Assembly: GCF_024666525.1 (NCBI RefSeq)
Contig: NZ_CP088294.1
Location: 4,030,001 to 4,094,000 of the forward strand
Reading direction: 5' to 3'
DNA from: Pseudomonas sp. J452
Lineage (GTDB): Bacteria > Pseudomonadota > Gammaproteobacteria > Pseudomonadales > Pseudomonadaceae
DNA length: 64,000 nucleotides
The translations under genes and the position numbers were made by a program. The notes beneath the pieces were generated by a model, which worked only from the letters and a program-made list of their open reading frames with translations, ran no database searches and was not told the origin of the DNA. Shown here piece after piece: positions 1-25,798 of the stretch (position 1 is the first letter of the stretch; each line of letters begins with the position of its first letter).

Positions 1-97
1 CAAGCGCAACGCGTGTTTTGGTATCCATGGCCGGGGAGGTGTCTCGCTCCATTGCTGCGAATATCCGGTCAAGAGTGACATCAGGAAGTTTGCTCAT
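1..97 (-). CDS. Hypothetical protein, N-terminal part only
   Basis: The minus strand opens at an ATG at 97 behind a GAGG ribosome-binding site and stays open to the window edge, giving 32 residues that begin MSKLPDVTLDRIFAAMERD. The gene runs out of the window, so its length is unknown. I do not recognise the family. Together with the small genes to its right it belongs to the lower-GC accessory DNA that ends near 3236. Confidence 0.5.
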   Translation of the reverse strand, partial: MSKLPDVTLDRIFAAMERDTSPAMDTKTRVAL

Positions 98-418
98 ATA
101 CACCTCGTCCACTGTAGAAAATCCCCATCCTGCGCAGTAACCGTAACAACAGAGAACACATAACGCAAAGGTGACCATTATTAGTCATACAACTTTCAAG
201 ACACCCGACAACACAATACCCGGTCACCCAGGAATGCCCCGTCAATTTCCATATAAATAATTATTGAAATATTGTCATCGCGACTAACGAACTTCGAAAC
301 ACCTCAAAAAAACCATTAAACCGAGGCACAAAAAAACCGCCATCAGGCGGTTTCTCTGTTCGTCAGCGCAGCCTCTTCTACAGGTTGGTAACCGACGCAA
401 TGACGTGGCTTCTTAGAG
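98..418. other. AT-rich intergenic stretch
   Basis: About 320 bases without a supportable gene. Composition is clearly more AT-rich than the core chromosome to the right. It should contain the promoter of the gene leaving the window at base 1 and holds the terminator at 334-353. Confidence 0.5.
334..353 (-). terminator. Rho-independent terminator for the small-gene pair
   Basis: Perfect 8-bp stem (AAACCGCC / GGCGGTTT) with an ATCA loop. Read on the minus strand the stem is followed by a run of T, so it ends transcription of the genes at 419-864. Confidence 0.75.
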
Positions 419-610
419 TCAATGATGCTCAGACTTACGCAGTGTCCCAGGGGCAAAGCGGGATTCGTACTCAAGCGAGTCGGTGACCTGACGTTCGATG
501 TCGTCGAACAGCGGTGCTAGCGAAGGTGTAGTCGCTCGGTGGAGCTCGAGGAACTTGAGCAGTTCCAAAGCGGTTTCCGTCTGCATCTCGAGATCACAGT
601 AAACGGCCAT
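419..610 (-). CDS. Small hypothetical protein (63 aa)
   Basis: Small acidic protein with no recognised domain, signal peptide or membrane segment. The ATG at 610 lies two bases after the stop of the upstream gene (613-864) and follows a GGGG/AGGA stretch, so the two are probably co-transcribed and translationally coupled. A terminator lies 65 bases downstream. Base composition and surroundings suggest acquired DNA. Function unknown. Confidence 0.45.
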   Translation of the reverse strand: MAVYCDLEMQTETALELLKFLELHRATTPSLAPLFDDIERQVTDSLEYESRFAPGTLRKSEHH

Positions 611-612
611 TC

Positions 613-864
613 CTATCCCCCTGTGCTAGTCCGCTTGCCTCTCAGATACTCGGCCTGAAGCAACAACATCTTTGCTCCCTGGATTACACCCTTCCTCTTC
701 AGCGCAACCAACAGCCGTTCAACCTCATCAAACTCGACATCGTCGCCCGAAAGATTCGTAAGCACCTGCGCCAAGCGGCCATACACATCCCCTTGAGGCG
801 TCACGCCGTGCTCTGCCGCGAGCGCTCGTACATACTCTTCGACGTCTCTCTTCTCGCCAGTCAT
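613..864 (-). CDS. Small hypothetical protein (83 aa)
   Basis: First gene of a two-gene unit with 419-610. The start at 864 was chosen because GAGGGG stands five bases before it; an in-frame ATG at 912 has no such site and would reach into the divergent promoter region. The protein is predicted to be soluble and largely helical, with alternating charged and leucine-rich segments. I do not recognise a family. It is divergent, across 65 bases, from the CcdA-like gene at 930, so the two promoters share one short region. Confidence 0.5.
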   Translation of the reverse strand: MTGEKRDVEEYVRALAAEHGVTPQGDVYGRLAQVLTNLSGDDVEFDEVERLLVALKRKGVIQGAKMLLLQAEYLRGKRTSTGG

Positions 865-929
865 CGCAGCCCCTCGGGAGATGTTCCCGGGTATCATCAC
901 AGTGATCGTCAACCGAGGATAGATCCCCG

Positions 930-1169
930 ATGACCTACAAAACGGGTGCGCCCAACCAGAACGTGCACCTCATAGTGAGCGGAGACCTACTTGGTAGAAC
1001 CAGCGAAGCAGGCATCAACCTTTCCCTCACTCTGGAGCAGGCGTTGGTTCAGGCCATCCAGGTTAGACGGGGCGAGATTTGGTTGGCTGAGAACCGAGAA
1101 ACGCTCGTGGGGTACAACAAGCACACAGATGAGCACGGCGTGTTTAGCGATGGATTCCGCTGCTTCTGA
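930..1169 (+). CDS. CcdA-family antitoxin homologue, orphan
   Basis: Seventy-nine residues with the layout of CcdA antitoxins: a short N-terminal ribbon-helix-helix part (VHLIVSGDLL, then GINLSLTLEQAL) and a C-terminal toxin-binding tail (WLAENRETLVGYN followed by HGVFSDGFRCF). In CcdA families the tail neutralises CcdB, a gyrase poison encoded just downstream. Here no CcdB follows: the next gene is nadE on the opposite strand, ending at 1249. The tail is complete, so this looks like a solitary antitoxin gene, possibly an anti-addiction factor or a relic. Family assignment is from sequence resemblance; activity is unknown. Confidence 0.65.
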   Translation: MTYKTGAPNQNVHLIVSGDLLGRTSEAGINLSLTLEQALVQAIQVRRGEIWLAENRETLVGYNKHTDEHGVFSDGFRCF

Positions 1170-1202
1170 CAGCGCAGTGCACGCCTAGCGCACCAAAGAA
1201 AA

Positions 1203-1220
1203 GGGGCGCAACAGCGCCCC
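1203..1220 (-). terminator. Terminator of nadE
   Basis: Perfect 7-bp stem GGGGCGC / GCGCCCC with an AACA loop. Read on the minus strand it is followed by TTTTCTTT, so it ends nadE transcription; it may also stop readthrough from the CcdA-like gene. Confidence 0.75.
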
Positions 1221-1248
1221 TAGCATATTCAAGCAACTGGCTAAGCTA

Positions 1249-2880
1249 TTAGTCCCCAATGCTCCAGCCAGAAGTGATTGGGTAGCGACGGTCACGGCCA
1301 AAGCCACGCTCGGTCACCCGTGGGCCCACCGCAGCCTGGCGCCGTTTGTATTCATTCAGGTCGACTAAGCGAATCACCTTCCTCACAACCTCCTTGTCGA
1401 AGCCTTTCTCCGTGATGGCATCAGCAGACAAGTCCTGCTCGATGTACAGGCGAAGGATTTCATCAAGGACTGGGTATGGAGGCAGGGAATCCTCGTCCTT
1501 TTGATCAGGAGCGAGTTCAGCAGACGGTGGACGATCTATGACGCGTTGTGGAATGACATGGCCCAGGGTGTTGCGGTATTCGCAGAGTCGGAATACCAAG
1601 GTCTTGGGCACATCCTTCAGGACGTCGTAGCCACCCGCCATATCGCCGTACAAGGTCGCATATCCGACAGCCATTTCGCTCTTGTTGCCGGTGGTCAGGA
1701 CGAGATACCGCTTCTTGTTGGAGATCGCCATCAGCATAGTGCCGCGACACCGGGCCTGAAGGTTCTCCTCGGTAGTGTCCTTACCAAAACCTTCGAACAT
1801 TGGCGCAAGCGTGGTCAGGAACGCCTCTACCATGGACGCGATGGGCAGTACGCTGTACTTCACGCCCAGAATGTCGGCTTCTGCTTTCGCATCGTCCTGG
1901 CTCATCTGGGCAGTGTAGTGGTACGGCATCATCACGGCTTCAACGTTGTCTGCGCCCAAGGCATCCACAGCCACAGCAAGCACCAGCGCCGAATCGATAC
2001 CACCCGAAAGGCCCAGCACAACGCCTTTGAAGCCATTGCGGTGCACATAGTCCTTAACCCCAGCTACCAGCGCCTGGTATACGCTGGCTTCAAGGCTGAG
2101 GAGCTCAGTGGTCTGAGCTGGCACCGGCACCAATGCGCCTTCCTTGATCTCAAAGTCCGAGATAAAGAGTCCCTCTTCAAAAGCAGGGGCACGCTGAGTG
2201 ACCTTTCCGCCGCCATCCACCACAAAGCTATTGCCATCAAACACCAGCTCGTCTTGGCCACCAACCTGGTTGACGTAGACGATGGGGATGGAGCATTCGC
2301 TGGCGCGCTTCGCCAACAGTTCTTCACGCTCAGCCTGCTTACCACGATGGAAAGGCGAGGCGTTGAGGGTAAGCATGACCTGCGCACCGGCATCACAAGC
2401 CTGCTTGAGAGGCTCGGAGAACCAGATGTCCTCACAGATGGTGATGCCGACCGGCACGCCGAAGATGTTAACTACGCAGGGGCCGCTGCCCGGTTCAAAG
2501 TACCGTTTCTCATCGAAAACACGATAGTTGGGCAGGCGCTGTTTGTTGTAGCAGGCGAGTTCCTTGCCGTCCAAGATCACTGCACAGCTGTTGTAACGCG
2601 CGCCATGTTCGACCCAAGGGAAGCCGATTACAGTGACAATGCCTTGAACAGCGTCTTTGACATGCTGCAGCGCTTTTTCAATCCGGCTTTGCATGCTGGA
2701 GCGAAGGAGCAGATCCTCTGGTGGGTAACCGCAAAGGGTCAGCTCTGGAAAAACGATGACTTGGGCTTTTAGGTCGTCGCGAGCCTTATGGGCTGCTTCG
2801 ATGACCTTCTCAACGTTGCCGTATACATCCCCGACGCGGATGTTCAGCTGTGCCATTGCCACTCTCAAACGTTGCTCCAT
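1249..2880 (-). CDS. nadE: NAD(+) synthase, glutamine-dependent (two-domain)
   Basis: Makes NAD from nicotinate adenine dinucleotide, ATP and glutamine in the cytoplasm. The N-terminal nitrilase-type glutaminase (residues 1-260) shows the Glu-Lys-Cys triad in FPELTLCGYP (Glu46), NKQRLPNYR (Lys113) and ITICEDIWF (Cys149). The C-terminal synthetase has the P-loop SGGIDSAL at 292-299. The ATG at 2880 gives 543 aa, the usual family length, and follows GGAG at nine bases; an in-frame start at 2946 would add 22 unrelated residues. Pseudomonas normally relies on a shorter ammonia-dependent NadE; the remnant of that gene lies at 3237-3545. The neighbours and composition suggest this copy came with acquired DNA and now serves as the working enzyme. 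Confidence 0.93.
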   Translation of the reverse strand: MEQRLRVAMAQLNIRVGDVYGNVEKVIEAAHKARDDLKAQVIVFPELTLCGYPPEDLLLRSSMQSRIEKALQHVKDAVQGIVTVIGFPWVEHGARYNSCAVILDGKELACYNKQRLPNYRVFDEKRYFEPGSGPCVVNIFGVPVGITICEDIWFSEPLKQACDAGAQVMLTLNASPFHRGKQAEREELLAKRASECSIPIVYVNQVGGQDELVFDGNSFVVDGGGKVTQRAPAFEEGLFISDFEIKEGALVPVPAQTTELLSLEASVYQALVAGVKDYVHRNGFKGVVLGLSGGIDSALVLAVAVDALGADNVEAVMMPYHYTAQMSQDDAKAEADILGVKYSVLPIASMVEAFLTTLAPMFEGFGKDTTEENLQARCRGTMLMAISNKKRYLVLTTGNKSEMAVGYATLYGDMAGGYDVLKDVPKTLVFRLCEYRNTLGHVIPQRVIDRPPSAELAPDQKDEDSLPPYPVLDEILRLYIEQDLSADAITEKGFDKEVVRKVIRLVDLNEYKRRQAAVGPRVTERGFGRDRRYPITSGWSIGD

Positions 2881-3236
2881 GGTTTCTCCAGAAATGCCTA
2901 TATCGAGATCATCAAAATGCGACGCTGTCCTGACATCTGCGGTCAAGGAAGCACCATCTGAAGCTCCATGCTAAGCAAGGGGGGGTGCGGATTACTGCTA
3001 GCCATTGCGGCGCATCGAACCTAAGTCAGGACTGCCCGGAGGATCGCGGGCATCGTGCGAACTAGGACATTATGCCCTATCCAATCTCAGCTCCCTCTCC
3101 CGAAATAGGGTGGTGCTCTGGAAGGTGGGGCACTCCCAATGTTTCGTATTGGGCAGGAGCAAATTCTGCACAAGAGCAAAATCAGCCACTCACTCAGGCA
3201 ATGAGCTGGATTGGGCACTATTCTGGGGGGAGGAAG
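2881..3236. other. Junction between accessory DNA and chromosomal nadE remnant
   Basis: About 356 bases with no supportable gene on either strand. It carries the nadE (minus strand) promoter side and several short inverted repeats, for example CCCAAT / ATTGGG separated by seven bases near 3136-3156. Recognisable ammonia-dependent nadE coding sequence starts abruptly at about 3237, so the right end of the inserted DNA is placed there. No integrase gene or duplicated attachment site is visible inside the window. Confidence 0.5.
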
Positions 3237-3545
3237 GTAATGGGCTTCTTCACCAAGTTCGGCGACGGCGCCTGCGACCTCGCGCCGCTGTCCGGCCTGG
3301 TCAAGGGCCAGGTGCGGGCCATCGCCAAGCACCTCGGCGCCCCGGAAAACCTGGTGTTCAAGGTGCCGACGGCCGACCTGGAAGAACTGCGCCCAGGCAA
3401 GCCGGACGAGGAAGCCCATGGCGTCAGCTATGCCGAAATCGACGCTTTCCTGCATGGCCAGGCGGTCAGCGAGCACGCCTACGCCACCATCGTGCGCACC
3501 TACGACAACACCCGGCACAAGCGCGAGCTGCCCCTGGTACCTTGA
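3237..3545 (+). pseudogene. nadE: 3' remnant of ammonia-dependent NAD synthetase gene
   Basis: The reading frame [20 protein letters not shown] onward, ending HKRELPLVP, is the C-terminal third of the roughly 275-aa ammonia-dependent NadE of Pseudomonas (the motifs [20 protein letters not shown] and the HKRELP end are diagnostic). About the first 170 residues, including the SGGVDS ATP-binding loop, are missing, and upstream sequence in the same frame is unrelated. The product cannot be an active synthetase. An ATG lies at 3240 behind AGGAAGG, so a truncated peptide could still be made. The codon use is that of the core genome, unlike the DNA to its left. Confidence 0.88.
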
Positions 3546-3555
3546 TTGCATAAGT

Positions 3556-3575
3556 CGCGGGCTGAAATGCCCGCG
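3556..3575 (+). terminator. Hairpin after the nadE remnant
   Basis: CGCGGGC / GCCCGCG stem with a TGAAAT loop just behind the old nadE stop codon. There is no T-run, so it is at most a weak terminator or processing hairpin. Confidence 0.35.
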
Positions 3576-3636
3576 GCAGGCTACGCTTCCAGTGTCACGG
3601 CCGCGCAGGCCCGGCTACTTAAGGAAGGAAAGCCTC

Positions 3637-4740
3637 ATGTCGACCAATGCCACGCCAGATCAACTGCTCACCCGCACCCTGCTCGACACCCTGATCCGCG
3701 CGGGTCTGATCGCCGCCCTGGTGGTCGCCTGCTACCAAGTCTTCAGTCCCTTCCTCAGCCTGATGGTCTGGGCACTGATCCTCGCCGTCACCCTCTACCC
3801 ACTGCATGGCATGCTCAAACGCCGGCTCGGCGGCGGTGAGGGCCGCGCCGCAACCCTGCTGGTGCTGATTGCCGTCGCCATCCTGCTGGTACCCGCCTAC
3901 CTGCTCGGCGCCTCGCTGACCGAGTCCGTGCAGAGCGCCATCGGCGTGGTCAAGGAAGGCAACCTGCACCTGCCGGCACCACCCGACTCCGTGGCCCAGT
4001 GGCCACTGATCGGCAAGCCCCTACATGCCGTCTGGGCCCAGGCGGCCGCCGACATCAGCAGCGTGCTGCAGCAGATTGCCCCGCACGTCAAAGACACCGC
4101 GCTGGGGCTGCTGGGCAAGCTGGCCGGGGCCGGCCTCGGCCTGCTGGCCTTCATCGGCTCGCTGATCATCGCCGGCATCATCATGGCCTTCGGCGAGAGC
4201 GGCCACCACAGTGCCCAGCGCATCGCCTCGCGCATCGTCGACCCGAGCCGCAGCGACATGCTGGTCGAGCTGTGCACCGCCACCATCCGCGCAGTGGCCC
4301 AGGGGGTGATCGGTATTGCCTTCATCCAGATGATGCTGATCGCCGTCGCCTTCGTCCTCATGGGCGTGCCCGGCGCCGGCCTGCTGGCCCTGGCCGTCTT
4401 GCTGCTGGGGATCATGCAGTTGCCGGCCACCCTGATCACCGTGCCGGTGATCGCCTTCGTGTTCTTCAGCGAAGGCGTCAGCCTGCTCACGATCATCTTC
4501 GCCATCTACACCTTCGTCGCCGGCCTCGCCGACAACGTACTCAAACCGATGCTGCTGGGGCGTGGCGTGGATGTACCGATGCCGGTGGTGCTGATCGGTG
4601 CCTTGGGCGGCATGGTCAGCGGTGGCATCATCGGCCTGTTCATTGGCCCGGTCTTGCTGGCCGTGGGCTACAAGCTGTTCTGGCAGTGGGTCGAGACCCC
4701 GTCCTCCAGCAGCCTGGCCGGCTCGCAGGATGGCGAATAA
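3637..4740 (+). CDS. AI-2E family transporter (PerM/YdiK-like permease)
   Basis: A 367-aa inner-membrane protein with about eight hydrophobic segments: two near the N-terminus, one near 75-95, and a dense C-terminal block with the conserved run FVAGLADNVLKPMLLGRG. Family members export small molecules; the substrate cannot be read from sequence. The ATG at 3637 follows AAGGAAGGAA. It is the first gene of a tightly overlapped operon: its end overlaps the start of the outer-membrane factor by 11 bases. That pairing suggests it works with, or is at least expressed with, the tripartite efflux proteins downstream. Confidence 0.85.
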   Translation: MSTNATPDQLLTRTLLDTLIRAGLIAALVVACYQVFSPFLSLMVWALILAVTLYPLHGMLKRRLGGGEGRAATLLVLIAVAILLVPAYLLGASLTESVQSAIGVVKEGNLHLPAPPDSVAQWPLIGKPLHAVWAQAAADISSVLQQIAPHVKDTALGLLGKLAGAGLGLLAFIGSLIIAGIIMAFGESGHHSAQRIASRIVDPSRSDMLVELCTATIRAVAQGVIGIAFIQMMLIAVAFVLMGVPGAGLLALAVLLLGIMQLPATLITVPVIAFVFFSEGVSLLTIIFAIYTFVAGLADNVLKPMLLGRGVDVPMPVVLIGALGGMVSGGIIGLFIGPVLLAVGYKLFWQWVETPSSSSLAGSQDGE

Positions 4741-6298
4741 TCCAGGGCGCGCCTGGGCCTTGCTGGCCGCAGCCACCCTGGGTGGCTGCGTGCGCCTGGG
4801 CCCGGACTTCCAGTCGCCCCAACAGGACTGGATCGACCACTGGGACAGCACTGCCCTGGCAGCGGCCAGCGTGCAGCAACCGCAACCGGATCACCGCCAA
4901 TGGTGGGCGCAGCTCGAGGATCCGCTGCTCGACCGCCTGATCAGCGCAGCCGATGTGAACAACCCCAGCCTGCGCATCGCCGCCCTGCGCATCCTCGAGG
5001 CCCGCGCCCAACTCGGTATCGCCAGCAGCGGGCGCTACCCGCAGGTGCAGCAGGGCAGCGCCGACAGCCTCTACCTCGACCGCAACCAGTACGACGGCGC
5101 CCCGGAGCTGGACAGCAACGCCTGGCAATACAGCACCGGTTTCGCTGCAGGCTGGGAGCTGGACTTCTGGGGCCGCTACAGCCGCGCCATCGAGTCAGCC
5201 GACGCCAACTACTTCGCCGCCCAGGCCAACTACGAGGATGTCCTGGTGCTGCTGCGCGCCCAGGTGGCACAGACTTACTACGCCTTGCGCACCGCCGAAG
5301 CCCGTCTGGGCATCGCCCGCGATAATGCCAAGCTGCAAAAGCGCAGCCTGGACATCACCGAGCGCCTGTTCAACAGCGGCAACAGCGATGAACTCGACCT
5401 GCAACAGGCCAAGACCCAGTACCTGGCTACCCTGAGCAGCATCCCCGATCTGGAGACCCAGGTCGCCCAGACCCGCAATGCCCTGGCCGTGCTGGTTGGC
5501 CAGCCGCCGGGCAGCCTGCCCGAGTTGAACGCCGAGACCGCCCTGGTGCCGCTGGTCGATCAGGCCCTGCTCGCTGACGTGCCAGCCAACCTGCTGCTGC
5601 GCCGCCCGGACGTACGCGCTGCCGAATTGCTGGTGGCCGCTCAGTCGGCACTGATCGGCGTGGCCGAAGCCGATCTCTACCCCTCGATCAGCCTGCTCGG
5701 TAGCATCGGCTGGTCCGCCAGCAGCCTGGATGGCAGCCCGCAGACGGTCAGTCTCGGCGGTGGCCCCAGCCTGACCTGGAACCTGTTCGACCACGGCCGC
5801 CTGCGCAACAACGTGCGCGTGCAGGACGCCCGCCTGCAGCAACTGATCGAGGCCTATCAAGACCGCGTGCGCCAGGCCGCGCGCGAGGCCGACGATGCCG
5901 CCACCGGCCTGAGCAAGGCCCTGGAGCGCGAACGCATCCTGCGCGAAGCCTCATTCTCGGCCAAACGCTCGCTGACCCTGGCCAACGCCCAGTACCGCGA
6001 AGGCTATTCCGACTTCCAGCGCGTACTGGACGCCCAGCGCGCCCTGTTCGCCCAGCAGGACGGCTACCTGCTGGCACGCAGTGCCGCGCTGAGCAACCTG
6101 ATCAATCTCTATCGCGCCCTCGGTGGCGGCTGGTACACCAACCAGCCGCTACTCGACCAAGCCACCTACGAACAGATGAGCCAACGCACCGACTGGGGCG
6201 ACCTGCTCGACGAGCCACCCGCCCGCCCAGGCCAACACAGCATGCCCGACCAGCCCGCGAACACCCCGGAACCCGCCGCCCAGGCAGATACGCCATGA
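4730..6298 (+). CDS. Outer-membrane efflux lipoprotein, NodT/OprM family
   Basis: A 522-aa TolC-like exit channel for a tripartite pump. It has a lipoprotein signal with lipobox TLGGC (Cys20 predicted lipidated) and two outer-membrane-efflux repeats containing the usual coiled-coil and barrel segments (for example NLLLRRPDVRAAE and AYQDRVRQAAREADDA). Translation starts at the ATG at 4730 inside the end of the previous gene. The C-terminal tail after about residue 480 is proline-rich and not part of the barrel. It overlaps the next gene by ATGA. Closest functional guess is drug or aromatic-acid efflux. Confidence 0.9.
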   Translation: MANNPGRAWALLAAATLGGCVRLGPDFQSPQQDWIDHWDSTALAAASVQQPQPDHRQWWAQLEDPLLDRLISAADVNNPSLRIAALRILEARAQLGIASSGRYPQVQQGSADSLYLDRNQYDGAPELDSNAWQYSTGFAAGWELDFWGRYSRAIESADANYFAAQANYEDVLVLLRAQVAQTYYALRTAEARLGIARDNAKLQKRSLDITERLFNSGNSDELDLQQAKTQYLATLSSIPDLETQVAQTRNALAVLVGQPPGSLPELNAETALVPLVDQALLADVPANLLLRRPDVRAAELLVAAQSALIGVAEADLYPSISLLGSIGWSASSLDGSPQTVSLGGGPSLTWNLFDHGRLRNNVRVQDARLQQLIEAYQDRVRQAAREADDAATGLSKALERERILREASFSAKRSLTLANAQYREGYSDFQRVLDAQRALFAQQDGYLLARSAALSNLINLYRALGGGWYTNQPLLDQATYEQMSQRTDWGDLLDEPPARPGQHSMPDQPANTPEPAAQADTP

Positions 6299-7410
6299 CC
6301 GACAAACCCAAGAACGCTCCACCGGCCCCGGCCAAGAGCCAGGATCCCAGCCGCCGCGGCGTGCAGATCACCCTGGCGGTAATCGGCCTGACCCTGATCT
6401 GGTACCTGCTGGCCGACCGCTTCACCCCCTACACCCAACAGGCGCGGGTGCAGGCCTATGTGGTGCCCGTGGCAGCGGAGGTGGCCGGCCGCGTGAGCCG
6501 GGTGCTGGTGGAAAACAACCAGATGGTCAAAGCCGGCCAGGTGCTGTTCGAGATCAACCCCGAGCCCTACGAGATTGCCGTGGCCAAGGCCCGTGCCGAG
6601 CTGCAGAACATGCGTGGCCAGGTCGGCGCCAGCACCGCCGGCATCGACTCCGCCCAGGCCTCGCTGCGCGTCGCCGAGGCTGGCGAACTCGAGGCCAGCC
6701 AGGACCGCGCCCGCCTCGAACGGCTGTATCGCGATGACCCCGGCACCATCTCCCTGCGCCGCCTGGAAATCTCCCGGGCCAATCAGGCCAAGGCCAGCAG
6801 CCAGGTGGCCGCGGCCCGGGCCGAGGTGCAACGGGCCCGCGAAACCGAAGGTGGCAGCGGCGAGGACAACGCCCGTCTGCGCAGCGCCACTGCGGCACTG
6901 GAGCAGGCCGAACTGGACCTGAGCAAGACTCAGGTAAAAGCCGCCTCCACCGGGCTGATTACCGATCTGCGCATCGAAGTGGGCCAGTACGCCGGGGCCG
7001 GCAGCCCGCAGATGACCCTGATCGCCCTCAACGACCTGTGGATCAGCGCCGAGATGAGCGAGAACAACCTCGGCCATCTGCAGCCGGGCACACCAGTATC
7101 CATAGTCCTCGATGCCCGCCCCGGGCATGTCTACCGCGGACGCATACGCAGCATCGGCTACGGCATCAGCGTCGGCCAGGCACCGCCTCCCGGCAGCCTG
7201 CCGACCGTGGAGAACAACCGCGACTGGTTGCGTGCGGCGCAGCGCTTCCCAGTGATAGTCGAGCTCGAGGCCAACGAGCTGGGCGACTACCGCGGCCTGC
7301 GTGTCGGCGGTCAGGCCGAGGTGATGGCCTTCCCCAGCGAGGGCAACCCGCTCAACCTGCTCGGCCGCGCCTTTCTGCGCGTGATGAGCTGGCTGTCGTT
7401 CGCCTACTGA
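6295..7410 (+). CDS. HlyD/EmrA-type membrane fusion protein
   Basis: Periplasmic adaptor of 371 aa. One N-terminal transmembrane helix (about residues 22-42) is followed by a biotinyl-lipoyl-like domain (VAAEVAGRVSRVLVENNQMV), a long alpha-helical hairpin (about 95-215), the second lipoyl half, and a beta-barrel part. This architecture bridges an inner-membrane transporter to an outer-membrane factor. It starts within the stop of the outer-membrane gene (ATGA) and its own TGA overlaps the next ATG, so the operon is translationally coupled. Confidence 0.9.
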   Translation: MTDKPKNAPPAPAKSQDPSRRGVQITLAVIGLTLIWYLLADRFTPYTQQARVQAYVVPVAAEVAGRVSRVLVENNQMVKAGQVLFEINPEPYEIAVAKARAELQNMRGQVGASTAGIDSAQASLRVAEAGELEASQDRARLERLYRDDPGTISLRRLEISRANQAKASSQVAAARAEVQRARETEGGSGEDNARLRSATAALEQAELDLSKTQVKAASTGLITDLRIEVGQYAGAGSPQMTLIALNDLWISAEMSENNLGHLQPGTPVSIVLDARPGHVYRGRIRSIGYGISVGQAPPPGSLPTVENNRDWLRAAQRFPVIVELEANELGDYRGLRVGGQAEVMAFPSEGNPLNLLGRAFLRVMSWLSFAY

Positions 7411-8447
7411 TGGACATGCCCGTGGCCGACCCCCGCCCCCAGCGTGCCCTGCGCCTGGCCTGCGGCGTGGCCTTGGGCACAGCACTGGGCTTCGGCCTGG
7501 CGCTGCCGCTGCCCTTCCTCACGCCGATGCTGGTCCTGGTGCTGCTGGTATCGAACAACCAGCCACTGAGCGCCAAGGCCGGCCTGAGCCTGGCCCTGGT
7601 GATCACCCTGACCTGCGGCAGCGGTCTGCTGCTCAGCCCGCTACTGCGCCACTCGCCGGTCAGCGGCGTGCTGCTGGTGGCACTCGGCCTGTTCCTGATC
7701 TTTCGCTTCAGCCTGCGCGGCGGCAACAGCCTGCTCTCGACCTTGCAGGTGGTCGGTCTGACCATGATCTCTGCCGCCGGCACAGCCTCCCTGGCACTGG
7801 GCCAGACGGTGGTCGAGGCGCTGGTCAAGGCGGTGCTGCTGACCACCCTGTGCGTGGCCTTCAGCCACCTGCTGTTCCCCGAGCCACCCGGCCAGGCCGC
7901 AGCCGCCAAGCCCGCGCCCATGGCCAACGCACGCTCCGCCTGGATCGCCCTGCGCGCCATGCTGGTGGTGATGCCGGCCTGGCTGCTGGCGCTGATCGAT
8001 CCGGCCAGCTATATGCCGCTGGTGATGAAGTCGGTCAACCTCGGCCAGCAGGTCTGCAGCACCAATGCCCGCGACGCCGGCCGCGAGCTGCTCGGCTCGA
8101 CCCTGCTCGGTGGTGCACTGGCGATCGTTTTCTGGACGCTGCTGAGCATCCTGCCGCACCTGTGGCTGTTCTTTCTGCTGATGCTGCTGTTCGTCCTGCT
8201 TATGGCTCGCCGCCTGTATCGGCTGAGCACTACGCGCTTCGGCGCCAGCTTCTGGCTGAACACCTGTGCCACCCTGATCATCCTGCTCGGCCAGTCGGTA
8301 CAGGACAGCGCCTCCGGCAAGGATGTCCACACGGCCTTCGCCATCCGCATGGGCCTGTTCATCCTGGTCACCCTGTACGCCTGTGCGGCGGTCTACCTGA
8401 TCGACCTGCGCAGCAAAGGCCCAAACGAGGAAATCCCATGTTCATGA
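7410..8447 (+). CDS. DUF2955 inner-membrane protein (FUSC-like transporter partner)
   Basis: A 345-aa integral membrane protein with two blocks of about five hydrophobic helices separated by a short cytoplasmic stretch (about 160-180). This is the arrangement of DUF2955/FUSC-like proteins, which are commonly encoded beside HlyD adaptors and thought to be the inner-membrane component of aromatic-acid or drug exporters. No ATP-binding motif is present, so energy should come from the ion gradient. The ATG at 7410 lies inside the TGA of the HlyD gene. Substrate unknown. Confidence 0.75.
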   Translation: MDMPVADPRPQRALRLACGVALGTALGFGLALPLPFLTPMLVLVLLVSNNQPLSAKAGLSLALVITLTCGSGLLLSPLLRHSPVSGVLLVALGLFLIFRFSLRGGNSLLSTLQVVGLTMISAAGTASLALGQTVVEALVKAVLLTTLCVAFSHLLFPEPPGQAAAAKPAPMANARSAWIALRAMLVVMPAWLLALIDPASYMPLVMKSVNLGQQVCSTNARDAGRELLGSTLLGGALAIVFWTLLSILPHLWLFFLLMLLFVLLMARRLYRLSTTRFGASFWLNTCATLIILLGQSVQDSASGKDVHTAFAIRMGLFILVTLYACAAVYLIDLRSKGPNEEIPCS

Positions 8448-8875
8448 ATCTGTTGATCGGCCTGCCGGTGACCCTGCTGTGCCTGCTGTTGCAGGCCGTG
8501 GTGGTCGCCCTCAGCTTGCGCCGCTATGTCGAGTTCCGCCGCAACCTGCACACCCCCTCGCCAGGCAGCACCATCCTGATCCTGGGCCTGGTGATGCTGC
8601 TGATGCTGTTCGGCAACTTCCTGCAGATGGCCATCTGGGCCCAGTTGTTCGTCATGCTCGGCGAGTTCGAGAGCTTTACCCAGGCCCTGTATTTTTCCGG
8701 CGTGACCTTTTCCACCCTTGGTTACGGCGATCTGGTGCTGTCCAAGCCCCGGCAACTGCTGAGCGCCCTGGAGGCGGCCAACGGCATCTTGATGTTCGGC
8801 GTGTCCACCGCCGTGCTCACCGCCGCCCTGCATGATGTGATCAAGCACTACACCGAGAGAGCCAGTGACTCTTGA
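8438..8875 (+). CDS. Two-helix ion channel protein (potassium-channel pore family)
   Basis: A 145-aa membrane protein with an N-terminal helix pair and a pore module near residues 75-125 whose selectivity filter reads STLGYGDLV, as in potassium channels. There is no voltage-sensor block and no cytoplasmic RCK domain. It overlaps the end of the DUF2955 gene by ten bases, so it is the fifth member of the operon. A passive channel inside an efflux operon may balance charge or pH during export; that role is inference. Confidence 0.8.
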   Translation: MFMNLLIGLPVTLLCLLLQAVVVALSLRRYVEFRRNLHTPSPGSTILILGLVMLLMLFGNFLQMAIWAQLFVMLGEFESFTQALYFSGVTFSTLGYGDLVLSKPRQLLSALEAANGILMFGVSTAVLTAALHDVIKHYTERASDS

Positions 8876-8886
8876 GGCGGGGCGCC

Positions 8887-9432
8887 TCAGTCGGCAGCGA
8901 AGCCCAGACTGATGGACACCAGCACCTGCTGCTCGGGATCGTCGCCCAGGTGGTAGTCCGGCGCCGGGCCGTAGCCCAACCAGAGCTGTTGGCCGTTCTT
9001 GATCCGCACATCGGAACGCTCGTCGCCATCGCCCTCCAGCCCAGCGAGCAAAGCGCTCACCTGCGCGCGCGGCATGCCCAGGCGCAGCCGGTCATCGACC
9101 ACGAAGCCTTGCATGTCGGCCCTCGGCTCGACTTGCTGCAACCAGCCGAGGAACAGGTCTGAAGTGAACTGCTCCTGCTTCCAGCAGCGCACCTCGCGCA
9201 GCCTCTCACCCTCGAACGTCAGCAGCAGGGCATTGCCATAGAGCAGGCCGCGCCGGCCCTGGCGCAGCGGCAGTTCGGCCGTGGGCGGCCCCAGCCGCTC
9301 GACGAAAGCGGCCTTGGGTGCGCTGGGCGGCAGACCGAACACGGCCTTGCCGACATGCACCTGCAACTCGGCGCGAGCCACCCCGGCACCAGCCAACAGC
9401 AGCAGGATTGCCACCAGTTTCAGCATGTTCAT
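8887..9432 (-). CDS. Hypothetical periplasmic protein with signal peptide
   Basis: A 181-aa protein with a clear Sec signal (MNMLKLVAILLLLAGAG, cleavage near ARA-EL). The start at 9432 is preferred over the ATG at 9438, because GGAG abuts the latter but stands six bases before the former. The mature part is rich in charged beta-strand-like segments; I do not recognise a domain. The gene is convergent with the efflux operon (11 bases apart) and has no obvious partner. Confidence 0.7.
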   Translation of the reverse strand: MNMLKLVAILLLLAGAGVARAELQVHVGKAVFGLPPSAPKAAFVERLGPPTAELPLRQGRRGLLYGNALLLTFEGERLREVRCWKQEQFTSDLFLGWLQQVEPRADMQGFVVDDRLRLGMPRAQVSALLAGLEGDGDERSDVRIKNGQQLWLGYGPAPDYHLGDDPEQQVLVSISLGFAAD

Positions 9433-9474
9433 CGCCATCTCCTTTGACTGTAGTGTTTAAGCAGACACAAAAAA

Positions 9475-9493
9475 GCCGGGCTAAAGACCCGGC
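9475..9493 (-). terminator. Terminator of dcd
   Basis: GCCGGG / CCCGGC stem with a seven-base loop, followed on the minus strand by TTTTTTGTGT. Confidence 0.8.
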
Positions 9494-9514
9494 CTTTCTA
9501 TGCCACAAGCGTAA

Positions 9515-10081
9515 TCAGGTTTTCGGCAGCGTCACGCCGGTCTGGCCCTGGTACTTGCCGCCACGGTCGGCGTAAGACACTTCGCACTCTTCGTCGGACT
9601 GCAGGAACAGCATCTGCGCCACACCCTCGTTGGCGTAGATCTTCGCCGGCAGGGTGGTGGTGTTGGAGAACTCCAGGGTCACGTGGCCTTCCCACTCGGG
9701 CTCCAGCGGAGTGACGTTGACGATGATGCCGCAGCGCGCGTAGGTGCTCTTGCCCAGGCAGATGGTCAGCACATCACGCGGGATGCGGAAGTACTCGACG
9801 GTACGGGCCAGGGCGAAGGAATTCGGCGGGATGATGCACACCGGGCCTTTGACATCGACAAAGCTCTTCTCATCGAAGTTCTTCGGATCGACGGTGGCCG
9901 AGTGGATGTTGGTGAAGACCTTGAACTCGTCGGCGCAGCGTACGTCGTAGCCGTAGCTGGAGACCCCGTAGGAAATCAGGCGCTCGGCGCCTTCGGTGCG
10001 CACCTGGCGCTCGACAAAGGGCTCGATCATCCCGTGCTCCTGGGCCATGCGGCGAATCCACTTGTCCGATTTGATGCTCAT
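9515..10081 (-). CDS. dcd: dCTP deaminase
   Basis: Converts dCTP to dUTP and ammonia, the main source of dUMP for thymidylate synthesis in proteobacteria. The 188-aa length is that of the homotrimeric family. Diagnostic blocks are SSYGYDVRC near residue 41, the substrate loop KSTYARCGI (111-119), and [16 protein letters not shown] (123-138), whose last Glu is the expected catalytic residue. A terminator follows. In Pseudomonas it is normally next to apbC and metG, as here; an REP hairpin separates it from apbC. Confidence 0.95.
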
Positions 10082-10165
10082 GGCGGGCGTCCTGACTCAA
10101 GGTGTGGTGAAAAACTGAGCGCGCATCTTACCGGGAGGCAAGGCGCGCTTCAAAGGCCCCTCGTC

Positions 10166-10234
10166 TGTAGGAGCCAGCTTGCTGGCGATCAGTGCTCGGT
10201 AAGCCCTGGGATCGCCAGCAAGCTGGCTCCTACA
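10166..10234. repeat. REP hairpin (GGAGCCAGCTTGCTGGC type)
   Basis: Two inverted copies of TGTAGGAGCCAGCTTGCTGG-type sequence facing each other over about 20 bases. The same unit recurs at 11396 (half), 42749, 56790 (fragment) and 63932. This is the REP/REPIN class common in Pseudomonas, mobilised by RAYT transposases elsewhere in the genome. Confidence 0.85.
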
Positions 10235-10243
10235 AAAGCGGCA

Positions 10244-11338
10244 TCAATCGTCGCTGATCTCGATATTCGGCATCGCACTGGCCCCCAAGCCACTCTGGGC
10301 GATGCGCGCACCGACGCAGCGGGCCATTTCCTGGTAGATCATGGCGATCTGGCTTTCCGGGTCGGCGATGGTGGTCGGCTTGCCGCCGTCCGACTGCAGG
10401 CGAATAGCCATCGACAGCGGCAGCGAGGCCAACAGGTCGACGCCGTACTGGCTGGCCAGCTTCTCGCCACCACCTTCGCCGAACAGATGCTCGGCATGGC
10501 CGCAGTTGGAGCAGATATGCACGGCCATGTTCTCCACCACGCCGAGCACCGGGATATTGACCTTGCGGAACATCTCCACGCCCTTTTTGGCATCCAGCAG
10601 AGCCAAGTCCTGCGGGGTGGTGACGATCACCGCGCCGGCCACCGGTACCTTCTGCGCCAGGGTCAGCTGGATGTCGCCGGTGCCCGGCGGCATATCCACC
10701 ACCAGGTAGTCGAGATTGTCCCAGGCGGTCTGGGTGATCAGCTGCAGCAGCGCGCCGGAGACCATCGGCCCGCGCCATACCACCGGAGTGTTCTCATCGG
10801 TGAGGAAGGCCATCGACATGACCTGCACACCGTGGGCTTCCAGCGGCACGAAGAACTTCTCGTCGCGCACCTTCGGCCGAGTGCCTTCGGCGATGCCGAA
10901 CATGATGCCCTGACTCGGGCCGTAGATATCCGCGTCGAGGATGCCAACCCGCGCACCTTCGCGGGCCAGGGCCAGGGCCAGGTTGGCCGCGGTGGTCGAC
11001 TTGCCCACCCCGCCCTTGCCGGAAGCCACGGCGATGATGTTCTTCACATTGGCCAGCGCCGGCACCTGGGCCTGCGCCTTGTGCGCCTCGATCACGCAGT
11101 CGACCTCGACCTTGGCGCTATCGATGCCTTCGACCCCTTCCAGAGCCATCTGCAGCATCTGCGCCCAGCCGCTCTTGAACAGCCCGGCGGCGTAACCCAG
11201 CTGCAGGCGTACCTGGACCTTGCCGCCGTCGATAGCGACATCGCGCAGGCAGCCGGCGCTGACCGGATCTTGATTGAGGTTGGGGTCGGTGAACTGGCGC
11301 AGGGTCGCTTCGACCACTTGGCGGGTAACGGCGCTCAT
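10244..11338 (-). CDS. apbC: Iron-sulfur cluster carrier protein ApbC/Mrp
   Basis: P-loop ATPase that binds and hands over [4Fe-4S] clusters in the cytoplasm. The 364-aa chain has an N-terminal MIP18/DUF59 domain (1-85), a deviant Walker A SGKGGVGKST at 106-115, the switch region PPGTGD near 217-222, and the cluster-binding pair Cys276/Cys279 in HICSNCGH. Length and order are standard for the Mrp/NBP35 family. It is divergent from metG, as in many gamma-proteobacteria. Confidence 0.93.
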   Translation of the reverse strand: MSAVTRQVVEATLRQFTDPNLNQDPVSAGCLRDVAIDGGKVQVRLQLGYAAGLFKSGWAQMLQMALEGVEGIDSAKVEVDCVIEAHKAQAQVPALANVKNIIAVASGKGGVGKSTTAANLALALAREGARVGILDADIYGPSQGIMFGIAEGTRPKVRDEKFFVPLEAHGVQVMSMAFLTDENTPVVWRGPMVSGALLQLITQTAWDNLDYLVVDMPPGTGDIQLTLAQKVPVAGAVIVTTPQDLALLDAKKGVEMFRKVNIPVLGVVENMAVHICSNCGHAEHLFGEGGGEKLASQYGVDLLASLPLSMAIRLQSDGGKPTTIADPESQIAMIYQEMARCVGARIAQSGLGASAMPNIEISDD

Positions 11339-11395
11339 GGGGCAACTCCGAAAGGCTGAGCAAAACAGGCCGGCATCTTACCCCAGCAAGGCTGT

Positions 11396-11419
11396 TGTAG
11401 GAGCCAGCTTGCTGGCGAT
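11396..11419. repeat. Half REP unit
   Basis: A single arm of the 10166-type REP sequence, without its inverted partner, in the apbC-metG divergent region. Confidence 0.75.
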
Positions 11420-11533
11420 GCTTCTGCACTGCCTGCGCTCGTCCCTACCGCTGAAGGCCGCCACGGGTGAAAAAAAACCGCCGCGCCTATATAGTTGCCG
11501 GCTTCCCTCGTAACACCAGTGCAGCCGATCATC

Positions 11534-13576
11534 ATGTCCGAAGCCCGCAAGATTCTCGTTACCAGCGCCCTGCCCTACGCCAACGGCTCGATTCACCTTG
11601 GCCACATGCTCGAATACATCCAGACCGACATGTGGGTGCGCTTCCAGAAACTGCGTGGCAACCAATGCATCTACGTCTGCGCCGACGACGCCCACGGCTC
11701 GGCGATCATGCTGCGCGCCGAGAAGGAAGGCATCACTCCGGAACAGCTGATCGCCAACGTACAGGCCGAGCACAGCGCCGACTTCGCCGACTTCCTGGTC
11801 GACTTCGACAACTTCCACTCGACCCACGCCGAAGAAAACCGCGAGCTGGCCACCAGCATCTACCTCAAGCTGCGTGACGCCGGGCATATCGCCACCCGTT
11901 CGGTGACCCAGTACTTCGACCCCGAGAAGGGCATGTTCCTCGCCGACCGTTTCATCAAGGGCACCTGCCCGAAATGCGCGGCCGAGGACCAGTACGGCGA
12001 CAACTGCGAGAAATGTGGCGCCACCTACGAGCCGACCGAGCTGAAGAACCCGCGTTCGGCCATCTCTGGCGCCGTGCCGGTGCTGCGCGACTCCAAACAC
12101 TTCTTCTTCAAGCTGCCCGACTTCGAGGCCATGCTGAAGACCTGGACCCGCAGCGGCACCCTGCAGGACGCCGTCGCCAACAAGATCGCCGAATGGCTGG
12201 ATGGCGGCCTGCAGGAGTGGGACATCAGCCGTGACGCGCCCTACTTCGGCTTCGAGATCCCCGACGAGCCGGGTAAATACTTCTACGTCTGGCTGGATGC
12301 GCCGATCGGCTACATGGCCAGCTTCAAGAACCTCTGCAGCAAACGCCCGGAGCTGGACTTCGACGCGTTCTGGAACAAGGACTCGACGGCCGAGCTGTAT
12401 CACTTCATCGGCAAGGACATCGTCAACTTCCACGCCCTGTTCTGGCCGGCCATGCTCGAAGGCGCCGGCTACCGCAAGCCGACCGCAGTCAACGTGCACG
12501 GTTACCTGACGGTGAACGGGCAGAAGATGTCCAAGTCGCGCGGCACCTTTATCAAGGCGCGTACCTACCTGGATCACCTGAATCCGGAATACCTGCGCTA
12601 CTACTACGCCAGCAAGCTGGGCCGCGGCGTCGACGACCTTGACCTGAACCTGGAAGACTTCGTGCAGAAGGTCAACTCGGACCTGGTCGGCAAGGTGGTC
12701 AACATCGCCAGCCGCTGCGCCGGCTTCATCCACAAGGGCAACGCCGGCGTGCTGGTCGATGCCAACCCCGAGCCGGAACTGTGGGCCGCCTTCCAGGCTG
12801 CCGCGCCGAGCATCGCCGACGCCTATGAAGCCCGCGATTTCTCCCGCGCCATGCGCGAGATCATGGCCCTGGCCGACCGCGCCAACGCCTGGATCGCCGA
12901 CAAGGCGCCGTGGGCGCTGAACAAGGTCGAAGGCAAGCAGGCCGAGGTGCAGGAAATCTGCGCCCTGGGCGTCAACCTGTTCCGCCAGTTGGTGATCCTG
13001 CTCAAGCCGGTATTGCCGAAGCTGGCCGCCGACGCCGAGGCCTTCCTCAACGTCGCCCCGCTGAGCTGGAGCGATCTGGGCACACCGCTGGCCAACCACC
13101 AGCTGAACCCATTCAACCCGCTGCTGACCCGCATCGAACCAGCGAAGATCGAAGCCATGACCGCCGCCTCCAAGGAAGACCTCGCCTCTACCGAAGCCCC
13201 GGCCGCACCCTCCGGCAACGGTGAACTGGCGAAAGACCCGCTGGCTGCCGAGATCGCCTTCGACGCCTTCGCCGCCGTCGACCTGCGCATCGCCCTGATC
13301 GAGAAGTGCGAGTTCGTCGAAGGCGCCGACAAGCTGCTGCGCCTGACCCTGGATATCGGCGATGAGAAGCGCAACGTGTTCAGCGGCATCAAGAGCGCCT
13401 ACCCGGACCCAAGCAAGCTGGAAGGCCGCCTGACCCTATACGTGGCCAACCTGGCCGCACGCAAGATGAAGTTCGGCATCAGCGAAGGCATGGTCCTGGC
13501 CGCCGGACCGGGTGGCGAAGAAATCTACCTGCTCAGCCCGGACAGCGGCGCCAAGCCGGGGCAGCGGGTCAAGTAA
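11534..13576 (+). CDS. metG: Methionyl-tRNA synthetase
   Basis: Charges initiator and elongator tRNA-Met. The 680-aa protein has the class I HIGH signature as SIHLGHM (residues 19-25), four zinc-ligand-type cysteines in TCPKC and NCEKCG (from Cys145), KMSKS at 331-335, and a C-terminal EMAP/Trbp111-type tRNA-binding domain (about 575-680) that supports dimerisation. The ATG at 11534 matches the usual start [18 protein letters not shown]; an in-frame ATG at 11495 would add 13 residues without support. A TATATA-like -10 element precedes the gene near 11490. Confidence 0.97.
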
Positions 13577-13631
13577 AGGAAAATCGCGTTGCCACCGAGA
13601 GCAGTGGCAACGCAATTAGTCAGCTTCCGGC

Positions 13632-14165
13632 CTAAGAGCAGGTACCGGTGTTGGTTGTATTCACACTGGTCCGCCCCATGGTGGAGACCGTCACCACGCG
13701 TTCCTGCGTGCCCACTGACGGGCTTGCCCGGCATACCGTTGCCGAGATTCCAGGCCCCAGGCCATTGGCTGCAAAAGTCAGGCTGGTTGCAGCAGAATTC
13801 ACAAGATAGCCCGTGTTGACTGCCGGCCAGGCATGCACGACCACGTCGTCACCGCCACCCAGGGCTGCATCCGGCCCTAGACTAACCACCAACCACCCCT
13901 GCTCCCAGCTACCGGATGTCGTGCAGCTCACACCATCCGCAGACATGCACAAGCGCACCTGACCATTGCGCTTGAGCGCCTCGCTACGCGCCAAACGAGC
14001 CGCAGCAGCAAAATCATTGGAGTAGGTGCGCAAGCGGCTACCCAGGATAAAGCTGTCGAACGCCGGCAAGGCAATGGTTGCCAATATGCCCAGGATTGCC
14101 ATCGCAATCAGTAGCTCCACCAAGGTAAAGCCACTGCTGCGCTTCAGAGCGGACCAGATACTCAT
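13632..14165 (-). CDS. fimT: Minor pseudopilin, GspH/FimT family (FimU/FimT-like)
   Basis: Type IV pilus minor pilin of 177 aa. A type III signal is cleaved at SSG-FTLVELLIAMAILGI, with Glu at +5 of the mature form, followed by the hydrophobic stalk. A C-terminal pair of cysteines could form the disulfide loop (SCTTSG and GTCS). The start at 14165 has AGGAG seven bases upstream. It is the last gene of a six-gene operon and starts 11 bases after pilY1. Whether it corresponds to FimU or FimT of P. aeruginosa cannot be decided by eye. Confidence 0.85.
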   Translation of the reverse strand: MSIWSALKRSSGFTLVELLIAMAILGILATIALPAFDSFILGSRLRTYSNDFAAAARLARSEALKRNGQVRLCMSADGVSCTTSGSWEQGWLVVSLGPDAALGGGDDVVVHAWPAVNTGYLVNSAATSLTFAANGLGPGISATVCRASPSVGTQERVVTVSTMGRTSVNTTNTGTCS

Positions 14166-24108: not shown

Positions 24109-25140
24109 ATGGCCCTGCCCCGCATCACCTCGCCCCACGCCAAGGGCAGCAATCGCACCCAGAGCGTCATGCTGTTGGTGGCCGCCGCCTGCGCGCCCGG
24201 CGCCCTGGCCCTGACCTGGCTGTTCGGCATCGGCACCCTGGTCAACCTGGTCTGGGCCAGCGTCGTCGCCCTGGCCGTTGAAGCGGCGATCCTGGCCGCG
24301 CGCCAGCGCCCCGTCGCCTTCTTCCTCAAGGATGGCAGCGCCCTGGTCACCGCCGTGCTGCTGGCCCTGGCCCTGCCGCCTTATGCGCCCTGGTGGCTGA
24401 CCCTGGTCGCGGTCGGCTTCGCCATCGTGTTCGGCAAGCAGCTGTATGGCGGCCTCGGCCAGAACCCGTTCAACCCGGCAATGATCGGCTACGTGGTGGT
24501 GCTGATTTCCTTCCCCATCGACATGACCAGCTGGCCCAAGCCGCACACGGTGGGCGCCTGGGACGGCATCCAGCAGATCTTCGGCCTCGCCGCCCTGCCC
24601 GACGGCTGGAGCCAGGCCACCGCCCTGGACAGCCTGAAGGTCAACAAGAGCCTGACCATGGACGAGCTGTGGGCGCAGAACCCGGCCTTCGGCGAGTTCG
24701 GCGGCAAGGCGGTGGAATGGGTCAACCTGGCCTTCCTGCTCGGCGGCCTGTTCCTCATCTACAAGAAAGTCATCAGCTGGCACGCGCCGCTGGGCATGCT
24801 CGGCGCACTGTTCGTCATCAGCCTGCTGTGCTGGAACGGTTCCGGCTCGGACTCCAACGGCTCGCCGCTATTCCACCTGCTGACCGGCGCGACCATGCTC
24901 GGCGCCTTCTTCATCGTCACCGACCCGGTGTCCGGCGCCACCAGCAACCTGGGACGAATCCTCTTCGGCGCAGGCACAGGCGTGCTGGTCTATATCATCC
25001 GCACCTGGGGCGGCTACCCGGATGGCGTGGCCTTCGCCGTGCTGCTGATGAACCTCTGCGCCCCGACCATCGACTACTACACCCGCCCGCGCACCTACGG
25101 CCATCGCAAGCCGGAGCGCGGCTTCAAACTGGGGGAATGA
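24109..25140 (+). CDS. rsxD: Electron transport complex subunit RsxD/RnfD
   Basis: Inner-membrane subunit of 343 aa with about ten helices. The flavinylation motif VSGATSN (Thr expected to carry covalent FMN) lies near residue 279. It ends two bases before rsxG. The spacing from rsxC is enlarged by REP DNA, so translation must initiate independently. Confidence 0.94.
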
Positions 25141-25141
25141 C

Positions 25142-25798
25142 ATGGCCCTGCCGGAAATTTCCCGTTCGATGCTGAAGAACAGCCTGGTGCTCGGCCTGTT
25201 CGCCGTGGTCACCGTCGGCGTGGTGGCGATCACCCAGCAAGGCACCGCCACGCGCATCGCCGCCGCCGAGCGCGAAGCCAAGGCCCAGGCGCTGGCGCAG
25301 ATCCTCCCCGCCGGCAGCTATGACAACCACCTGCTGGACCAGCCGCGCCAGGTGTTCGACCCGCTGCTCGGCAACAAGACGCCGACCCCGGCCTACCTGG
25401 CCACCCTCCAGGGCGAGCCGGCGGCGGTGATCCTCCAGGCCACCGCGCCGGACGGCTACAGCGGCAGCATCTTCCTCCTGGTCGGCATCCTCGCCGATGG
25501 CCGCCTGGCTGGCGTGCGCGTGGTCGGGCACAAGGAAACCCCCGGCCTGGGCGACAAGATCGAGCTGGCCAAGAGCCCGTGGATCAACAGCTTCGTCGGC
25601 CAGTCGCTGCAAGCGCCGGACGCCGCAGGCTGGGCGGTGAAGAAAGACGGCGGCCAGTTCGACCAGTTCGCCGGCGCCACCATCACCCCACGCGCGGTGG
25701 TCAAGGCGGTGCACAAGGCGCTGCAATACTTCGACAAGCATCGGGACGAACTGCTGGCACCTGTGTCCAGCCAGAGCGGGGAAAACGACAATGGCTAG
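25142..25798 (+). CDS. rsxG: Electron transport complex subunit RsxG/RnfG
   Basis: A 218-aa subunit with one N-terminal membrane helix and a periplasmic FMN-binding domain. The covalent FMN site is FAGATITP near residue 180, with conserved [13 protein letters not shown] upstream of it. Electrons flow through the flavins of D and G. Overlaps rsxE by eight bases. Confidence 0.94.

Follow-up and report, generated by a model that had tools for sequence, protein, structure and literature searches.

The stretch of DNA analysed here (the window; 64,000 nucleotides) carries, close to its left edge, a complete gene for a two-domain NAD synthetase, which we call nadE2, and, ~360 bases from it, the 3′ remnant of a host ammonia-dependent nadE gene (Table 1). 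The open frame of nadE2 spans window 1249–2946 when extended to a TTG codon; the start common to its relatives gives the shorter gene listed in the table. NadE2 scored 791.6 bits against NCBIfam NF010588 (cut-off 479) and fuses a CN_hydrolase (PF00795) glutaminase domain to a NAD_synthase (PF02540) domain, the composition that defines a glutamine-dependent enzyme; its best solved relative is 5kha (E 2e-182). Window 3240–3545 encodes only the C-terminal 101 residues of ammonia-dependent NadE, covering positions 156–264 of the 266 in NF001979 with 153.6 bits against a cut-off of 250, and the ATP-loop part of this gene is absent from the window. The profile matches thus bear out the initial annotation, which had described a complete two-domain NAD synthetase on the minus strand beside a nadE reduced to its C-terminal part without the ATP loop. 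Its view that the two enzymes are unrelated does not hold, since both have the NAD_synthase domain PF02540 and NadE2 represents another subfamily with an added glutaminase domain. G+C content is 52–57% over window 1–3000 versus 63–69% over 3001–14000, and the small ORF 930–1169 has a 42% relative inside the nadE element of P. cichorii (G369).

Table 1 Features at the nadE junction and the distant 5′ remnant (positions in the window unless marked as genome positions)
Feature	Position	Strand	Basis or remark
Right-hand cargo, small hypothetical genes	1–1248	.	Low G+C; ORF 930–1169; element goes on to the left of the window
nadE2, glutamine-dependent NAD synthetase, 543 aa	1249–2880	-	Start common to relatives; NF010588
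nadE2 leader region up to the right end of the element, presumed own promoter	2881–3235	-	85–87% alignment with relatives
Right terminus of the element (C′)	3217–3235	.	Imperfect inverted repeat of the left terminus (starts at genome 3242900)
Six-base crossover footprint GGTAAT	3236–3241	+	GGTGAT at the left border
3′ remnant of host ammonia-dependent nadE	3242–3545 (frame read from 3240)	+	NF001979 match; contiguous with the 5′ remnant in G012
5′ remnant of host nadE	genome 3242901–3243463, outside the window	-	Start is the first ATG of the frame

One nadE gene in two distant pieces

A PF02540 search of the single-contig 4.86-Mb genome returned five places: the two-domain gene, the nadE 3′ piece, a nadE 5′ piece (genome 3242900–3243343, minus strand) and two short matches of 35.9 and 26.5 bits (family cut-off 21), which cover 77 and 67 positions within frames of 533 and 387 aa. 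Comparable short matches were present in all four relatives searched. No intact ammonia-dependent nadE was found in this search of the whole genome, where the initial annotation had asked for a second copy. The break between the 5′ and 3′ pieces falls at a single codon, number 188 of the open frame if the first ATG is taken as codon 1, among the codons for a conserved 13-residue stretch of ammonia-dependent NadE. In the SE-free relative G012, whose nadE is intact, the genome sequence on the 5′ side and the window sequence on the 3′ side align contiguously (2755–5956 and 5952–6265), which indicates that a single gene was split. The 5′ part comes after pncB in this genome and in all six other element-bearing hosts, and, among 14 intact nadE loci examined, pncB precedes nadE in eight, the other six having no pncB within their short flanks. 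Beyond the 3′ remnant, ~5.9 kb (window 3550–9460) is absent from this place in G012, whose alignment picks up again at window 9461; we take the genes of this segment to be transporter- and efflux-like.

The two pieces lie 790 kb apart and on opposite strands. An identical 1,233-bp IS3-family block, encoding a 92- plus 293-aa IS3-type transposase, occurs in opposite orientation at genome 3234886–3236118 and 3986459–3987691. The first block is 6,782 bp inside the left end of the element that interrupts nadE and the second is 45,544 bp from its right end, which gives an element of 53,559 bp if the parts are joined at the block. Relatives of four small genes on the right side of the second block occur in other nadE elements; one gene to its left has a 30% relative in the element of G057, which is the wrong side and a misfit with an inversion. 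Proof through IS target duplications was attempted and failed, as no clear duplication was found around the four IS copies in any pairing. An IS-mediated inversion of ~750 kb is nonetheless the most likely cause of the separation of the two element ends, and the element would then continue left of the window to the IS copy ending at genome 3987691. At another copy of the same IS3-family element (L123, 3907–6209), two tyrosine-recombinase-looking genes stand in tandem and may be a RIT-type element interrupted by the IS.

Elements inserted at one nadE codon

After the nadE 5′ part come four genes encoding proteins of 454, 828, 709 and 141 aa, in the intA-tfp-intB-srap layout reported for SEs (PMC10214605). 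The 454- and 828-aa proteins match the phage integrase family, and the 709-aa protein falls just below the cut-off (26.7 versus 27.1 bits). The initial annotation had proposed to look left of the window for the nadE 5′ part and an integrase; both exist, but 790 kb away and on the other strand. We searched 398 genomes of the genus, this one included, with IntA (E ≤ 1e-20) and obtained matches in 26. In five of them (this genome, G057, G087, G323 and G369), which share at least 59% IntA identity, intA is preceded by a nadE fragment that breaks off at the same codon; such a fragment was absent before intA at all other 22 IntA-matched loci. A scan of genome contigs from 84,980 species identified four nadE-element loci, in P. 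fluorescens HK44, Pseudomonas sp. S31, G087 and G369. Seven elements in different Pseudomonas therefore break nadE at the same codon, with both borders read in every case, and the two-gene junction that the initial annotation proposed to survey recurs in six other Pseudomonas. In all seven, nadE2 lies near the right border (attR), at the far end of the element, the two ends of G087 being on different contigs, and searches of the seven genomes turned up no intact ammonia-dependent nadE.

The elements vary in length (HK44, 21,311 bp; G369, 31,616 bp; G323, 33,389 bp; G057, 41,412 bp; S31, 42,624 bp; G087, split over contigs), and the cargo between their ends is largely different, with several genes beside nadE2 in common among G057, S31 and HK44. 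The hosts G057 and G323 are 98% alike in PncB and only 61% alike in IntA, indicating that each element was inserted independently at this site. A tblastn search of 72,556 plasmid records found no nadE element; Tfp matched two records (E ≤ 1e-5), IntB four (E ≤ 1) and NadE2 37 (E ≤ 1e-50), the last all below 60% identity. The cargo of the element in the window genome includes two defence-like genes, one for a type IIG-like restriction-methylation protein of 1,647 aa and one for a TIR-domain protein (L014, 2153–7096 and 11094–11867). The same element also contains a mutagenesis gene set with an SOS-response-associated peptidase gene (L013, 590–6510), presumably an imuB-dnaE2-like DNA damage mutagenesis set.

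The element begins with TTCTACCCCCC and finishes with GGGGGGAGGAA, flanked by GGTGAT on the left and GGTAAT on the right. Its inverted-repeat ends pair at 11 of 19 bases, and those of five others (G087 not included) at 11–14 of 19. The attL 6-mers fit nadE in all seven elements, and attL and attR 6-mers differ by one base in this genome, G057, HK44 and G087, by two in G369 and by three in G323 and S31; such differences are allowed by the SE rule, as reported, that the 6 bp of the target stand at attL and those of the donor at attR. Gene order and sizes are alike in all six elements checked, as are 4-bp overlaps at tfp/intB and intB/srap, and an intA/tfp overlap is present in G323 and G369 alone, the other four having a gap of 198–651 bp. 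With motifs read by eye in six elements, the first and third proteins retain GxRxxE- and RH-type motifs, and in the second (Tfp) N replaces the first Arg and S the His; an LGH and a Tyr are still present there. Stops flagged in the G087 IntA were dismissed, as they precede the conserved start.

Gene order and sizes, 4-bp overlaps, a motif-deficient second protein, inverted-repeat ends and a 6-bp footprint are features shared with SEs. One known SE, SE-Pda04Ya311 on pAQU1, has proteins of 545, 614, 671 and 161 aa in the same order as the nadE element. The Tfp, IntB and Srap profiles found no significant similarity to the proteins of this SE, in a single-sequence comparison run without a positive control, and the IntA profile gave a weak recombinase-type alignment (E 0.06). 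We therefore call the element SE-like, as it has SE anatomy but no significant protein similarity to the one SE compared.

We put a probability of roughly 90% on the reading that an SE-like element inserted in nadE, destroyed it and supplied the isofunctional nadE2, and that an IS inversion most likely split the element later. The initial annotation had likewise proposed an incoming element that landed in nadE and brought a replacement, an idea supported by the 5′ part with integrases beside it, by the failure to find a second intact nadE and by the recurrent junction. The element, with recombination genes at its left and nadE2 at its right, would insert by site-specific recombination over a 6-bp spacer; the insertion would fall in the codons for the conserved stretch of the host ammonia-dependent nadE and destroy it, and the cell would survive on the element-borne enzyme, whose gene brings its own leader. 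IS3-family copies in inverted orientation, one of them inside the element, would later have recombined, inverting ~750 kb and carrying the recombinase end and the nadE 5′ part to 3.24 Mb.

The strongest competing explanation, which we regard as unlikely though worth weighing, accepts the replacement but assigns the element to the GInts or an unnamed group that excises cleanly and restores nadE. Besides the lack of significant similarity to the one SE compared, the element sizes of 21–54 kb are nearer to the reported GInt median of 34.9 kb than to the SE median of 15.7 kb (PMC10214605), and some GInts are reported to produce an empty site. Against this, the protein lacking the first Arg is the second gene product in all six nadE elements, like the SE Tfp, whereas in GInts as described it is GinC, the third of three (PMC5385486, PMC10214605), and GInts are reported to have 10–11-nt direct repeats, in contrast to the inverted repeats with differing 6-mers outside them seen here. 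SEs leave no empty site, as reported (PMC10214605, PMC9345347); if the SE-like element moves or once moved in the same way, its insertion would be a permanent exchange and not a safeguard against loss by excision.

NadE2 and the two NAD synthetase types of the genus

The segment of the window from ~1199 to 3466–3546 aligns at 85–87% with G057, HK44 and S31; a search upstream of nadE2 found no sigma-70-like promoter match. The dN/dS of nadE2 is 0.019–0.045 in the ten pairs of the five closest copies (dS is mostly saturated in more distant pairs), so that nadE2 is under purifying selection. Across the seven elements, NadE2 identity correlates with that of IntA (r 0.88) and Tfp (r 0.91; 21 non-independent pairs each) and IntB (r 0.93; 15 non-independent pairs), versus r -0.01 for the host PncB (21 non-independent pairs). 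The divergence of nadE2 thus co-varies with the recombinases and not with the host, and the gene is part of the element. In several bacteria NAD synthetase is reported to be essential, and it has been pursued as an antibiotic target (PMC3376133). No sign of a NadV-type bypass was detected, pncB being the only NAPRTase-family gene in the genome. NadE2 is probably the working NAD synthetase of the cell, and its loss would probably be lethal; the cell now seems to depend on the element. The "addiction device" that the initial annotation saw in this arrangement is plausible as a consequence of carrying the replacement.

Alternatively, both nadE halves could still be made and assemble as a working split enzyme, with nadE2 as passenger cargo. 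Both remnants keep open frames and show no visible decay, their dN relative to pncB being similar to that of intact control pairs, a pattern that fits recent insertions and is uninformative on function. This explanation is nevertheless improbable: the conserved synthetase domain is itself interrupted, 790 kb separate the halves in this genome, strong purifying selection acts on nadE2, which all seven elements carry, and when the matter was tested in the parallel tmk case, the island-borne enzyme was reported to be the one that mattered (PMC10653934).

We also examined how the two enzyme types are distributed in the genus. Two-domain NadE occurs (E ≤ 1e-60) in 25 of the 398 genomes, namely five with elements and 20 others. 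Among these 20, ammonia-dependent nadE is absent in 12 (E ≤ 1e-15), intact in seven and partial in one (G123), and all six chosen genomes without two-domain NadE have an intact ammonia-dependent nadE; either type thus seems able to serve alone. The native two-domain genes are 43–77% identical to the nadE2 of the window. At the two native loci read (L070 and L074) they adjoin the same kind of gene, which we take to be bamD-like, and lie outside any element, with no sign there that the native gene is a remnant of an old one. One further genome (G017; L097, L108) has two intact ammonia-dependent nadE genes. That the host had such a native glutamine-dependent nadE, which made its ammonia-dependent nadE dispensable, and that the element and nadE2 came together by chance, is very improbable despite those 12 genomes, as the element-borne copies are 83–98% alike, are located within the element and vary together with its recombinases, and none of the seven nadE elements is without nadE2.

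Self-sparing of nadE2 was rejected as a special adaptation. Its site differs from attB at 9–11 of 20 bases (best site within the gene, 6–7 mismatches), and three native two-domain nadE genes, with 8–9 differences and a best site of 7 mismatches, also lack a target-like site; self-sparing moreover fails in thyA, given the 78% identity of the broken and carried genes in G351.

Related elements in thyA and DUF808 genes, and known systems

The other large IntA group, found in 19 genomes (L020–L038, L041), is inserted in thyA. In 19/19, a PF00303 search recovered two thyA fragments, the 5′ one beside intA and the 3′ one, which in six genomes is on another contig than intA, together with a full-length ThyA. 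The full-length thyA begins ~2.6 kb beyond tfp in each of the 19; for G375 and G387 it lies on the contig where tfp ends. The carried and broken ThyA are 37% identical in G264 and G080, 54% in G078 and 78% in G351 (four of the 19 genomes). Five nadE-element genomes of the sample and G010 each have a single thyA. In G292 (L178/L027, C155 ~24401–25673), two thyA 5′ fragments stand in tandem before intA; these and the closely similar broken thyA of G351 look as if one swap may have followed another. On a 603-kb P. putida plasmid (L165; NZ_CP061724.1, 58041–90278), which is one of the two plasmid Tfp matches, a four-gene block of the same kind is followed by a gene annotated as thymidylate synthase and then by chromate/arsenic genes, and the plasmid is a possible vehicle for thyA elements. 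A third group (G106 = L173, G272 = L160) interrupts a DUF808 gene. In G106, a full-length DUF808 copy lies within ~250 bases of the 3′ fragment, with intA on a different contig, and in G272 both fragments were seen and a full-length copy was not found. A Tfp profile applied to the same 398 genomes recovered the same 26, plus four weak matches (G278, G085, G291 and G241; E 1e-11 to 8e-11). Counting five nadE genomes, 19 thyA genomes and G106, a full-length version of the broken gene is present in 25 of 26.

We lean slightly towards a broader reading, in which SE-like elements may be dedicated core-gene swappers: each lineage would target a highly conserved stretch of one housekeeping gene and permanently carry another version of it in its backbone, every insertion would replace a core enzyme, the element would become non-deletable, and serial swaps would displace core metabolic genes across Pseudomonas. 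The carried gene stands beside attR in the nadE group and right after the recombinases in the thyA group. If this reading is correct, ammonia-dependent NAD synthetase is being replaced by the glutamine-dependent enzyme and one thymidylate synthase type by another, through a repeatable route for essential-enzyme replacement without a lethal intermediate, which is a long-standing question. It would also explain how large genomic islands enter essential genes and are retained, and it offers a simple search signature, namely a core gene interrupted at a constant codon in a genome that also has another, full-length copy. The constancy of the carried gene (7/7 for nadE, 19/19 for thyA), compared with isolated published cases, suggests a strategy rather than accidents. 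The type of NAD synthetase, a reported antibiotic target (PMC3376133), can evidently switch through one insertion.

Several systems in print resemble the nadE element. SE-6283 (Tn6283) and its Vibrio relatives in bcp are described as having a terminal block of three recombinase-type genes and one small gene, and a 6-bp footprint, and as inserting into a housekeeping gene of which they carry a homologue (PMC5991714, PMC9345347). They differ in that an E. coli bcp deletion reportedly grew, making bcp dispensable there, and in that the carried and broken Bcp are 54.8% identical; in the nadE element, the target is NAD synthetase and the carried enzyme is of another subfamily with another nitrogen donor. 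The authors suggested compensation and likened the bcp case to the V. cholerae recA element (PMC5991714, PMC9345347). That element, RME, is an island in recA reported to carry a divergent recA and an integrase at opposite ends and to be bounded by inverted repeats; it differs in its 9-bp repeats, its phage integrase and XerS, its target and its circular excision (PMC4405046). In the same genus, a 65-kb island in Pseudomonas putida KT2440 splits the essential tmk, and its last gene, encoding the dNMPK PP_1964, was shown experimentally to supply the function; the case was called a first example, and it differs in its target and its phage-T4-related enzyme (PMC10653934).

Neither nadE nor thyA appears in the main texts of four reports (PMC10214605, PMC9345347, PMC5385486, PMC11064530), and the main text of another (PMC5991714) contains none of nadE, thyA, "NAD synth" and "thymidylate"; the supplements of all five may list insertion sites. 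A literature search confined to main texts likewise found no paper on nadE or thyA elements of this kind. Precedents are thus in print for bcp, recA and tmk, and the nadE and thyA cases appear to be new to the literature found. The initial annotation had compared the locus with SXT-type elements in prfC, in which insertion into an important gene is likewise made harmless. SXT gives the interrupted gene itself a new 5′ end, whereas the nadE element supplies a whole different gene; nearer parallels are SE-6283 in bcp, the recA element of V. cholerae and the tmk island of KT2440.
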